DNA of 36,687 bases from IMG/VR virus record IMGVR_UViG_3300049846_000803, positions 1 through 36,687 of that record. One strand, written 5' to 3'. This DNA is from a virus. Positions 31,330 through 34,427 of the stretch are shown here, in pieces (the stretch's first letter is position 1; each line of letters starts with the position of its first letter). The notes under the pieces were generated by a model that saw nothing but the letters and a program-made list of their open reading frames with translations, did no database searches and was not told the origin of the DNA. A program made the position numbers and the translations under genes.

Positions 31330-31515
31330 ATGGAAAAGCTAATTAAATATTTAATTCGCACTGGACAGCGACCAACGCAGCTAGCCAGCACAATGAAAGT
31401 ACACCGAAATACCGTGGACAATTGGAAGTCTGGAAGGACCAAGCCGCTTGTTGATTTGGCTATTCGTTTAGAAGAAATCACTAATGGAGAGATTTCTGTT
31501 TATGACTGGAAATAA
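31330..31515 (+). CDS. Cro/XRE-like helix-turn-helix regulator, 61 aa
   Basis: A small DNA-binding protein with helix-turn-helix in residues about 13-33 (QRPTQLASTMKVHRNTVDNW), then KSGRTKPLVDLAIRLEEIT, typical of Cro/C1-type repressors reduced to the DNA-binding domain. It probably controls the divergent recombination cassette and the downstream replication gene, perhaps binding the short gap before 31330. GGGAAAA upstream is a weak ribosome-binding site. A strong hairpin follows the stop codon. No partner repressor is seen. Confidence 0.8.
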   Translation: MEKLIKYLIRTGQRPTQLASTMKVHRNTVDNWKSGRTKPLVDLAIRLEEITNGEISVYDWK

Positions 31516-31553
31516 AAAATCCCAGAGTGTCGGTTAGCGGCGAACTCTGGGAT
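31514..31553 (-). terminator. Intrinsic terminator active on the minus strand
   Basis: ATCCCAGAGT (31519-31528) and ACTCTGGGAT (31544-31553) form a perfect 10-bp stem with a 15-base loop that contains a further 3-bp stem. On the minus strand the stem is followed directly by T6 then ATTTCC; on the + strand only CAAAAGG follows, so it points to minus-strand transcription. No minus-strand gene lies to its right. On the + strand it sits in the leader of the primase-helicase gene. Confidence 0.75.
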
Positions 31554-31566
31554 CAAAAGGAGCTAG

Positions 31567-31602
31567 ATGATGAAATCTAACAGGTGGAGAATATCATGTT
31601 AA
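31567..31602 (+). CDS. Possible 11-codon leader peptide before the primase-helicase gene
   Basis: AAAAGGAG six bases upstream of ATG-ATG begins an 11-codon frame (MMKSNRWRISC). Its stop (TAA, 31600-31602) overlaps the start region of the primase-helicase gene (ATG 31596). It lies directly after the hairpin at 31519-31553. The arrangement suits translational coupling or an attenuation-like control, but no other evidence is available. Confidence 0.45.
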   Translation: MMKSNRWRISC

Positions 31603-33719
31603 AAAAATATTGGGAAGCTGGATTTTCTGTAATTCCAGTTAATGGCAAGAGAGCTTTTTTAGATAATTGGGCGCAATATTGCAAGCGTCTGCCGACAGAA
31701 CAAGAAATCGACGCATGGGAGGCTCAATATCCTTTTCCTAAATATGGCGTAGGAATCTGTTGCGGTCCCGCCAGCAATATCATGATTATTGACTGGGACA
31801 CAGAGAGCGCAGACATTAAAATGCTTGTCCCTTATTCCCCTGTCGTTAGGTATGGAGCCAAAGGCGGGGCATCTATATTTAAATATAATCCAAATATTCC
31901 ATCCAGAAAAGTAAACCGAGACAACCTAGGATCAAATAGGCATGTGCGCAAGCATGAGGGAATTGAAATAATGACAACAGGGCAGCAGGTTGTTCTGCCG
32001 CCTTCAATTCATCCAGATACTGGCAACGCATATCGTTGGCTTACGCCTGACACTCTAGAGAATTTCTCTGTAGAGGATTTGCCAGAACTTTCTAAGGATG
32101 ATGTTGACGAGCTTGTATCGCATATTCAGAGCTTCCCTTGCACAAACGAAAGTGGAGAAAGAATAAACGGAGGCGTTGAAACATCGAGCCGCAACGGTAG
32201 GCTTACGCAGATTATTTGCGCAATCATTGCAAACTGCCCATATAAAACAGACGAAGAAATTGCGAAAGAAATCTATGAGCACGACGAAAGAGAGTTTGGT
32301 GATAAAGCATATTTCAAGGCTAAAGACCGCCAGCACAACAAAAGAGCGCGTGGAAACGCAAGCCTTGCGGCATTGTATTTTACTAGAGAGCACCGCAAAC
32401 GCATGGTTAGAAACGGTTTAGCGGAGCCTTATACGCCTATTCCCGTTGTAAACGTTGACGATATACCAAAACGTCAAACAACAGAAATTAAGCCATTTCC
32501 AGAGAGCAACGGACTTATTTACGCCATACAGCAGGCAATTCTTAGTGTGTCACGCTCTAAGCAAGACGAGTTGGCGATGGGAGGGGCGATTGCTATTTGC
32601 TCGGCTCTTACCTCTAACCGATTCCACATTGCTGGTCAGCCAGCTATTACACATCAATATATAATGAACGTGGCTCGCTCTGGGCAAGGCAAGGGAGCGG
32701 CTCTTTCTATTGCAAACAAAATGTTCTCTCCAAGTGGGCTACAAAACTATAACCTAATGGGCCTTCGTAACTACTCATCTATTGCGGCGTTTGTTTCTCC
32801 TCTTAAGACACAGCGTTCTCGTATAGACATGATTGACGAGTTTGGAACTGTGCTGCGTGGATTAGCCAATGGATCAGACCTAAAAAAAGAATTAGAAGGG
32901 ATTCTCTGCGAGCTGTACACAAATGATGGCAGTTACTGGCAAGGACATACAACGAAAACCGACGGAGCGCAGGGGGCTTGTTATTCTCCTGCGATTACGA
33001 TTTTAGGTAACATTCAAGAGGATACGCTTATTAACGTCGCCACTAAGTCCATGATTGAGTCTGGCCTATTGTCTAGATTCTTGTATTTCTCTGCCAATAG
33101 GGAATCAGAGTTCAATGGTTCGTATAGAGGTGGAATAGATATGACCGTTATTTCTAATGAATGCGCAAGGATTTTTCCATTTTACAAGATGGAAAATGTT
33201 TTGCCAGACGGATCTATCATTGAAGACTTGGGAAAGGTTGAGCCGTATAGAGAGCCGCTTTGTTGGGGTGTTGGGGTAGAGGATTATAAGACGGCAATAG
33301 ATAGGGAGCTTTACCGTAAAGAGCAGGAGCTTGAGTCTTCTGGAGACGTTACTGGCGCAATATTTATTAGCCGTCGTCTTCAGATGGCTGAGCGATTGGC
33401 CATTACAAATGCCGTATGCTGCGATAGGCGCGACATTTCTAAGAAAGACCTAGACTATGGGCTAGCGGTTGTAGAAGCAGCCTCGCAGCGTTCTGACTAT
33501 TTCCTAAGGTCTATTGGTAGTGACAATGCTCTTGAGAAGAAAATGAAATGGGCGGTGAAGTTTATTCGCTCAAGAGGTGGTACAGTGAAGCACCGCGAAA
33601 TGCTAATGTATTCCCACATGGAGTCTGGCGCATTCCGCAAAATGATGCACACGCTCACCGAAACTGGTCAGGTGCGTCAATTATGCGCCGACCAGAAATC
33701 AATAACTTACACCGTTTAG
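31596..33719 (+). CDS. Primase-polymerase/helicase protein (AEP + DUF3987-like), 707 aa
   Basis: A two-domain replication protein. The N-terminal part (about 1-165) is a bifunctional primase-polymerase domain: IIDWD (64-68) gives the metal-binding D66 and D68, RYGAKGGASIF (85-95) is the second motif, without the His usual in many relatives, and GIEIMTTGQQVVLPPSIHP (122-140) holds the third acidic residue E124. The C-terminal part resembles DUF3987 helicase-like ATPases: RSGQGKG (361-367) is a Walker A variant with Gly in place of Ser/Thr, and MIDEFG (412-417) Walker B. The start at 31596 has GGTGGAG upstream, better than the GTG 12 bases earlier. It probably primes and unwinds at the origin just downstream; no phage polymerase is present. 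Confidence 0.88.
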   Translation: MLKKYWEAGFSVIPVNGKRAFLDNWAQYCKRLPTEQEIDAWEAQYPFPKYGVGICCGPASNIMIIDWDTESADIKMLVPYSPVVRYGAKGGASIFKYNPNIPSRKVNRDNLGSNRHVRKHEGIEIMTTGQQVVLPPSIHPDTGNAYRWLTPDTLENFSVEDLPELSKDDVDELVSHIQSFPCTNESGERINGGVETSSRNGRLTQIICAIIANCPYKTDEEIAKEIYEHDEREFGDKAYFKAKDRQHNKRARGNASLAALYFTREHRKRMVRNGLAEPYTPIPVVNVDDIPKRQTTEIKPFPESNGLIYAIQQAILSVSRSKQDELAMGGAIAICSALTSNRFHIAGQPAITHQYIMNVARSGQGKGAALSIANKMFSPSGLQNYNLMGLRNYSSIAAFVSPLKTQRSRIDMIDEFGTVLRGLANGSDLKKELEGILCELYTNDGSYWQGHTTKTDGAQGACYSPAITILGNIQEDTLINVATKSMIESGLLSRFLYFSANRESEFNGSYRGGIDMTVISNECARIFPFYKMENVLPDGSIIEDLGKVEPYREPLCWGVGVEDYKTAIDRELYRKEQELESSGDVTGAIFISRRLQMAERLAITNAVCCDRRDISKKDLDYGLAVVEAASQRSDYFLRSIGSDNALEKKMKWAVKFIRSRGGTVKHREMLMYSHMESGAFRKMMHTLTETGQVRQLCADQKSITYTV

Positions 33720-33816
33720 GTGTTAGCATGTTAGCAAGTGTTAGCAATCGATTTGCTAACACTTAAATATCTGAATTCATTAAATAAAAGTGCGTTTTTT
33801 GGGGTGTTGTTAGCAA
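33720..33816. repeat. Iteron-like repeats, candidate replication origin
   Basis: The word TGTTAGCA occurs at 33721, 33729, 33739 and 33808 and inverted at 33753-33761 (TTGCTAACA). Four copies are within about 40 bases. GTGTTAGCAA (33738-33747) and TTGCTAACAC (33753-33762) make a perfect palindrome with a 5-base centre. It starts at the stop codon of the primase-helicase gene and is followed by an A+T-rich tract. Iterons beside a replication gene suggest an origin or its regulatory operators. Copies are counted directly in the sequence. Confidence 0.65.
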
Positions 33817-33846
33817 AAGGGGTATATATCTTATATTTCCCCTTTT
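33815..33846 (+). other. A+T-rich hairpin next to the iterons
   Basis: AAAAGGGG (33815-33822) and CCCCTTTT (33839-33846) pair perfectly, enclosing a second ATATA/TATAT stem with a TCT loop. A T7 run follows 11 bases later (33858-33864). It may be a loosely spaced terminator for the primase-helicase transcript, or a structured element of the origin. Confidence 0.5.
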
Positions 33847-33849
33847 CCC

Positions 33850-33926
33850 TAAATATATTTTTTTCTTGCATTCTTATATATATATATCTAAGTATCTAAG
33901 AGTGGGGAACCGTAAAAAAATATATA
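33850..33926. other. Very A+T-rich tract (possible DNA unwinding element)
   Basis: About 80 bases with T7, a TA dinucleotide run (TATATATATATAT around 33875-33887), a tandem TATCTAAG pair and AAAAAAATATATAT. No frame of useful length. It sits between the iterons and the next gene, as expected of an origin unwinding region. There is no gene from 33720 to 33961. Confidence 0.55.
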
Positions 33927-33950
33927 TTGACATTTAAGGTCAACTATAAT
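33927..33950 (+). promoter_or_regulatory. Promoter -10 with overlapping operator-like palindrome
   Basis: TATAAT at 33945-33950 is a perfect -10 box 11 bases before the ATG at 33962, which implies a very short leader. TTGACA at 33927-33932 is only 12 bases upstream of it, too close to be its -35 box. TTGAC (33927-33931) and GTCAA (33939-33943) instead form an inverted repeat with a 7-base centre, a good size for a dimeric repressor. Confidence 0.5.
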
Positions 33951-33961
33951 AGAGTAATTCA

Positions 33962-34174
33962 ATGAATCCTGATTTCTCTCTAATTAACCCGCCGATCATG
34001 CTAAAGACTCAAGAAAAGCTAATTACAGTAGCATCTGACAAGGACGAAGCTTATTTGGACTTAACGTCCATACAGCCTAAGCTGTACAAGCGACTCACTC
34101 GTAAGCGCAAGGAAGCGCATCTTCAAGAAATAACAAACGCAACGGTCGATTTATTTCAAATAAAATCCTTGTAA
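33962..34174 (+). CDS. Small hypothetical protein downstream of the origin-like region, 70 aa
   Basis: The ATG lies 11 bases after a perfect TATAAT box, so the message is nearly leaderless and no good ribosome-binding site is seen. The product has an N-terminal polar part and a basic helical middle (PKLYKRLTRKRKEAHLQEIT), with a hydrophobic end (ATVDLFQIKSL). A DNA-binding role is possible because of the basic helix and the position. No family is recognised. It is the first gene of the early block that continues across the contig ends. Confidence 0.55.
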   Translation: MNPDFSLINPPIMLKTQEKLITVASDKDEAYLDLTSIQPKLYKRLTRKRKEAHLQEITNATVDLFQIKSL

Positions 34175-34249
34175 TCCCCAGCTTACTTGATATGTATAAG
34201 GGTTTACCTAAAAACAACCAACAAATTATTCTTTACTGCCGCATTAGTC

Positions 34250-34269
34250 TTTGCTAATTGTATAGCAAA
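34250..34269. promoter_or_regulatory. Operator-like palindrome before the ribbon-helix-helix gene
   Basis: TTTGCTA (34250-34256) and TAGCAAA (34263-34269) form an inverted repeat with a 6-base centre. The right arm ends on the A of the ATG. TTGCTAA inside it matches the inverted iteron core. It is well placed for autoregulation by the DNA-binding protein encoded directly after it. The rest of 34175-34268 shows no gene or clear promoter. Confidence 0.5.
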
Positions 34270-34427
34270 TGAAAACAAAACAATTTAATGTTCGCGTAGA
34301 CAAACAGCTCTACAAACAGGCAAACCGCGCTCGTAAAAAACTTAAATACAAATGGCCACATTTAATTAAACAAATGTTTCAAGGCGTATTAGACGCTGAA
34401 AAACTTTTTCTATCAAAGGATAAATAA
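34269..34427 (+). CDS. Ribbon-helix-helix-type (Arc/CopG-like) DNA-binding protein, 52 aa
   Basis: A 52-residue protein with the Arc/MetJ layout: a short beta strand (KQFNVRVDKQLY, 4-15), helix A (KQANRARKKL, 16-25), loop YKWP and helix B (HLIKQMFQGVLDAEKLF, 31-47). Such proteins dimerise through the strand and bind operators. A palindrome overlaps its start codon. The start at 34269 has no strong ribosome-binding site. The next gene begins with the base after its stop codon. It probably regulates the early block that follows. Confidence 0.6.
   Translation: MKTKQFNVRVDKQLYKQANRARKKLKYKWPHLIKQMFQGVLDAEKLFLSKDK

Follow-up and report, generated by a model that had tools for sequence, protein, structure and literature searches.

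The window analysed here, a stretch of 36,687 b, is an entire virus record (G000). A 242-b gap in it separates a gene with PrimPol and DUF3987 domains (31584–33719) from the open reading frame (ORF) at 33962. The end of the former gene at 33719 confirmed the sequence-only reading, which had placed the gap next to a primase-polymerase/helicase gene. The coding features that bear on the gap were as follows:

31330–31515, + strand: 61-aa Cro/XRE-like helix-turn-helix (HTH) protein, alternative candidate binder of the repeated word described below (HTH_3, 3.6e-4, below the curated cut-off).
31584–33719, + strand: PrimPol + DUF3987 primase-helicase with a C-terminal winged helix, candidate initiator (PF09250, 5e-17; PF13148, 4e-10; phrog_3022/1156, DNA primase).
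33522–33716, + strand: predicted winged-helix domain, codons 647–711, candidate reader of the word (AlphaFold pLDDT 80–89).

The winged-helix call was based on secondary structure and VIA-align, with which the C-terminal model matched winged helices in the PDB at a Z of about 10 and an rmsd of mostly 1–2 Å over about 60 residues; Foldseek alone returned no PDB match to this model at E ≤ 0.001. The full-length model was poor overall (pLDDT 38), and the winged-helix elements recurred in it at a pLDDT of about 80. The gap therefore adjoins an initiator/helicase-type gene with a predicted DNA-binding domain, as is usual for iteron-type origins. The HTH protein has a 62-aa counterpart in the relative L079, and a small HTH-like ORF occupied the same place in most relatives. 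It is a real alternative to the winged helix as candidate binder of the word. An inverted repeat (ATCCCAGAG...CTCTGGGAT, 31520–31555) lies between the HTH gene and the primase-helicase gene. Upstream, on the other strand, an AAA_24/Sak4-like gene and an SSB-like gene were found. The small ORFs after the gap had no family matches in Pfam or PHROG; by eye, the product of a 52-aa ORF (34269–34427), also without a match in either, resembled a ribbon-helix-helix DNA-binding protein. A tRNA-Asn (GTT) gene was located at 1876–1949, and an Rfam search returned nothing besides a tRNA.

The word TGTTAGCA occurred five times in the 36,687-b record when both strands were scanned. All copies lay within 95 b (33721–33815), the first beginning 2 b past the stop codon of the primase-helicase gene:

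33721–33728, + strand: copy 1.
33729–33736, + strand: copy 2.
33739–33746, + strand: copy 3, left half of a palindrome; near-match in L103 at 1168–1175.
33754–33761, − strand: copy 4, right half of the palindrome; aligned with L103 1183–1190, a perfect TTGCGGCA.
33808–33815, + strand: copy 5, distal; aligned with L103 1237–1244, a perfect TGCCGCAA.

All five copies that the sequence-only reading had seen after the gene, one of them inverted (copy 4), were thus located, and a search of the rest of the genome found no further copy on either strand. The total count alone was unremarkable (shuffle mean 2.2; at least five copies in 7 of 100 shuffles). Of all 8-mers in the genome, the word was the most densely clustered (5 in 120 b), and the sole further 8-mer with at least four copies per 120 b, GTTAGCAA, overlaps it. 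Four copies of any 8-mer in 120 b were seen in none of 40 first-order Markov genomes, and five copies inside the 242-b gap in none of 300 shuffles. A short word clustered in noncoding DNA and rare elsewhere is a hallmark of iteron-type origins. The gap held the following further elements:

33736–33764, no strand: palindrome with 12-base arms (33736–33747 and 33753–33764) and a 5-base centre.
33815–33846, no strand: hairpin AAAAGGGG/CCCCTTTT (fold z −2.5).
33823–33950, no strand: A+T-rich tract, candidate DNA unwinding element.
33903–33922, no strand: box TGGGGAACCGTAAAAAAATA, aligned in L103 with TGGGAATCCGTTAAAAAATA.
33927–33955, + strand: sigma-70-like promoter TTGACA-17-TAGAGT before the downstream small genes (consensus match only).

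The palindrome had been described with the same centre and with 10-base arms, slightly shorter than those found. The hairpin and the strongly A+T-rich tract that were said to follow the array were both recovered. No 100-b window of the genome is less stable than 33850–33949, which lies in this tract, inside the gap and beside the word cluster, and provides the adjoining, easily melted element of an iteron-type origin. Promoter-like matches were no more numerous than in shuffles. A palindrome TTGAC-N7-GTCAA (33927–33943) overlaps the −35 element of the promoter-like site and is a possible regulator operator. The GC-skew switch that an origin might be expected to show was absent at the site, the skew being positive to either side except for a local dip and its cumulative minimum lying near 13–14 kb, which is a weak test since the phage genes nearly all run one way.

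The closest sequence was L103, a 5.9-kb contig encoding the last 381 codons of a primase with 61% identity over residues 333–700. Its gap aligned with that of the virus at a score of 60.5, compared with at most 28.0 in 300 shuffles. The aligned stretch ran from copy 4 through copy 5 and a pyrimidine and A+T tract to a box (TGGGGAACCGTAAAAAA here, TGGGAATCCGTTAAAAA in L103). Copies 4 and 5 read TTGCTAACA and, reversed, TGTTAGCAA, and L103 had TTGCGGCA and TGCCGCAA at the aligned places. These two perfect TTGCGGCA copies, with no others in the 5.9-kb contig, aligned with 33753–33761 and 33808–33816 in the same orientations, 54 versus 55 b apart. Both aligned copies are TTGCGGCA in L103 and TTGCTAACA here, so the two sites underwent the same change. 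That it affected sites in opposite orientation, with conserved sequence around them, suggests binding sites that follow a changing protein. The remaining three L103 copies had two mismatches each to the L103 word, and the enrichment of TGCGGC in L103 was modest (matched by 4 of 100 shuffles). The two primases were most diverged from residue 633 on, with 11/29, 11/30 and 7/19 identical residues (about 37%), compared with 22–24 of 30 (73–80%) in the helicase core (residues 333–482). The hairpin at 33815–33846 was not kept as a hairpin in L103 (z −0.8).

L079 (contig L102, reversed), the one close relative of full length, shared the gene set, and its primase was 43% identical over 706 aa. Its 3' gap was A+T-rich, aligned weakly with that of the virus (35.5, compared with at most 32.5 in shuffles) and contained a hairpin; no repeated word was found in it. 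Conservation of the spacing in relatives, on which the sequence-only reading had staked its proposal, was therefore seen in L103, with a changed word, and not in L079, where no array was detectable. Single-protein primase searches of viral and genome contigs yielded no relative, a TerL search yielded four distant contigs in which the primase was not detected, and a nucleotide search of the region in phages gave no match. An alignment of 14 sequences was too diverged to serve as a query. The near-palindrome pattern GTGTTAGCAA-N-TTGCTAACAC was found in six contigs, all without arrays, and Rhodobacteraceae-type matches had the PrimPol domain alone in common with the primase studied here; both were set aside.

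Distant phages and one plasmid, with primase-helicases 17–26% identical, often had a noncoding gap next to this gene in which a word of their own formed an array, in many cases with inversion across an A+T core. Within these irregular arrays, which adjoin the A+T core and the primase-helicase gene, neighbouring copies lay 7–10 b apart. In Achromobacter phage nyashin_LB6, the eight copies of GTTGTATG in the genome all lay in the 240 b right after the gene, four on the + strand followed by four on the − strand. Sphingomonas phage Kharn had GTTGTAT inside the gap in five + copies followed by four − copies, besides scattered copies, and the gap of Spartinivicinus plasmid pC held 6 of the 10 ATGTGAAA copies of its record. 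The gap word was AGGGAAA in Vibrio 033B and GGGGATA in Baskent and Bhz54, and Loki-type phages had a TAGTAT array upstream of the gene instead. Unlike in several of these relatives, the TGTTAGCA copies are not arranged in two opposed arms. When the count of the top 7-mer in each gap was compared with 300 shuffles, it was never reached for the gaps of the virus itself, Spartinivicinus, Kharn, 033B and nyashin, and was reached in 8–10 shuffles for Baskent and Bhz54. The arrays of Eidolon (21/300) and Pfeifenkraut (22/300) were marginal, and the gap of Klebsiella Kmi2C had no significant array. The family-wide count of arrays is indicative and not a blind test, since words and gaps were partly picked by eye.

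The word itself was also encountered in unrelated settings. A scan of IMG/VR for three clustered TGTTAGCA copies retrieved 42 contigs with direct copies and 10 with an inverted copy. The general enrichment of TGTTAGCA is only a lead, because one control word of the same composition retrieved 22 contigs (compared with 42) and many arrays were of coding type: in more than half of those found elsewhere, all spacings were multiples of three, as in coding repeats. The earlier statement that no origin with this word had been described held among the matches listed in a full-text literature search, and has to be qualified by the recurrence of the word in arrays of other viral contigs. In L039, six copies (561–655) lie directly 3' of a gene for a Toprim + AAA_25 primase-helicase, ending 4 b from its stop codon, and a Sak4-like AAA_24 gene lies near the array. 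This is the same arrangement as in the virus studied here, with an unrelated enzyme that had no sequence similarity to the primase. Arrays often lay within, or next to, short ORFs that carry a basic motif (L034 6374–6532, L038 2700–2792, L041 6513–6591, L052 931–999, L057 2390–2452, L060 7224–7253 and L071 3034–3105), some near terminase-like genes, and a basic motif like REYMRELMRKKR was present in 9 of 47 array contigs, compared with 1 of 22 control contigs. Two initiator-like ORFs (L060 6820–7674 and L077 10801–11523), neither with a Pfam match, contained TGTTAGCA arrays at 10–11 b spacing within the coding sequence. Perfect 10-b tandem arrays of TGCTAACATA were found in L061 (3926–3984, six copies) and L072 (3732–3780, five copies), which look related; a GP88-family gene was present.

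The clustering of the word, the layout kept in L103 and, in the wider family, arrays beside this gene that use other words argue for the iteron-type origin that had been read from the sequence. We consider it likely that the array in the gap is such a replication origin of a tailed phage, and the layout probably persists between viruses whose words differ. From this arrangement we infer how replication might start. The primase-helicase encoded just upstream would bind the clustered TGTTAGCA copies via its C-terminal winged helix, oligomerise on the array and open the adjoining A+T tract. It could then load its own helicase ring and prime with its PrimPol domain, and the co-encoded SSB and Sak4 annealing protein may assist later replication. 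More tentatively, and short of an even chance in our estimation, PrimPol-DUF3987 phages may share a little-described origin type in which the C-terminal winged helix reads an arrayed word beside the gene and an A+T core, the word and the winged helix changing together. The words on which such a joint change would be based are TTGCTAACA and TTGCGGCA for the virus and L103, and GTTGTAT, GTAGTAT, GGGGATA, AGGGAAA and ATGTGAAA in others.

The copies could instead be an operator array without origin function. The promoter before 33962 would then be under the control of a dimeric regulator bound to the palindrome and half-sites, either the small protein encoded at 34269 or the Cro-like 61-aa protein (31330). 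The 12-5-12 palindrome indeed looks like an operator, a small HTH protein with a counterpart in L079 is co-encoded, and a promoter-like site is present at 33927–33955. However, the word copies lie 112–206 b upstream of the predicted −35 element and none overlaps it, and no copy was found at the regulator's own gene. L103 keeps the positions of the word but not the palindrome, and irregular arrays beside an A+T core and a primase-helicase recur in distant relatives. We therefore regard an operator array as unlikely.

A folded hairpin 3' of the gene might also be what is recognised, the repeated word being a by-product. The nearest case with experimental backing is pRN1 (Sulfolobus; PrimPol-helicase ORF904), which needs an element 3' of the replication gene in order to replicate; the same authors extended the idea of a stem-loop origin to Bordetella phage BIP-1 (PMC4234260). 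The gene type and the place are the same here, and the region folded far better than shuffles (z −5.4). RNA folds at the palindrome in three sequences gave a z of −4.7 for the virus and −2.4 for L079, where the hairpin was kept. The matching stretch of L103 folded no better than shuffles (z +0.15), yet the word copies were kept, so the structure was not conserved among these relatives as a pRN1-type stem-loop would be. The main palindrome does not include copies 1, 2 and 5, and several relatives had arrays of up to nine copies, which makes a stem-loop origin rather improbable.

That the primase-helicase transcript ends in a terminator or an mRNA-stabilising hairpin, as a hairpin 16 b past the stop codon might suggest, is very improbable: no U-run follows the hairpin, no Rho-independent terminator (a G+C-rich stem with a T run) was called in 33500–34300, the fold was not kept in L103, and three further copies and the conserved tract would be left unexplained. 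Still less probable is a packaging (pac-like) site, for although the arrays of L043 and L058 abut an apparent terminase gene pair and L033 carries an array and a large-terminase gene on one 4.3-kb contig, the array of the virus adjoins a replication gene, and its terminase gene (3947) is about 7 kb off even with the ends joined.

DUF3987 was predicted as a helicase in a survey of fused primases, which also suggested a role of the C-terminal winged helix in recognising origins (PMC5862659); where a phage offers a site together with its word and the domain that would read it, both become directly testable. If an iteron-type origin is the correct reading, origins could be marked from sequence alone in many uncultured phages. 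If, in addition, changes in the word go along with changes in the winged helix, pairs of sequences could suffice to work out how initiators recognise origins.

Several known systems resemble this arrangement in part. In the rep-ori of SaPIs (PICIs), short island-specific iterons lie beside an A+T-rich region next to a helicase-type initiator gene. The iteron sets flank that region on both sides and the initiator differs from the present primase-helicase, whereas the copies found here are all on one side of the main A+T tract. In lambda-type origins, an array of a short word inside the O gene lies next to an A+T-rich tract; the array described here is outside the gene, and the protein has helicase-like and primase domains. 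The in-gene arrays of L060 and L077 correspond to the lambda O-like placement of iterons.

Two PrimPol enzymes are known to prime at short motifs, GTG (ORF904) and at GTGA/GTGG or TTTGGTTA (NrSPol) (PMC8718748). Two of the five TGTTAGCA copies are preceded by a G, giving GTG; a link between the word and this motif was dropped, as the L103 word is without GTG. As in the P4 alpha protein, one primase-helicase would bind origin repeats with a winged-helix domain (PMC4234260). P4 alpha has a Toprim-type primase fused to the helicase and another word and layout, and the present protein matched PF09250 and DUF3987, with no Toprim match. The likeness to pRN1 extends to an N-terminal PrimPol domain, a C-terminal winged helix, a small DNA-binding gene upstream and, directly 3' of the gene, a noncoding element that retains its layout despite poor sequence conservation (PMC4234260). 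The pRN1 element is a 100-b stem-loop without iterons that is paired with an SF3 helicase, whereas here the helicase is of the DUF3987 type and the conserved feature is the position of the word copies rather than the hairpin.
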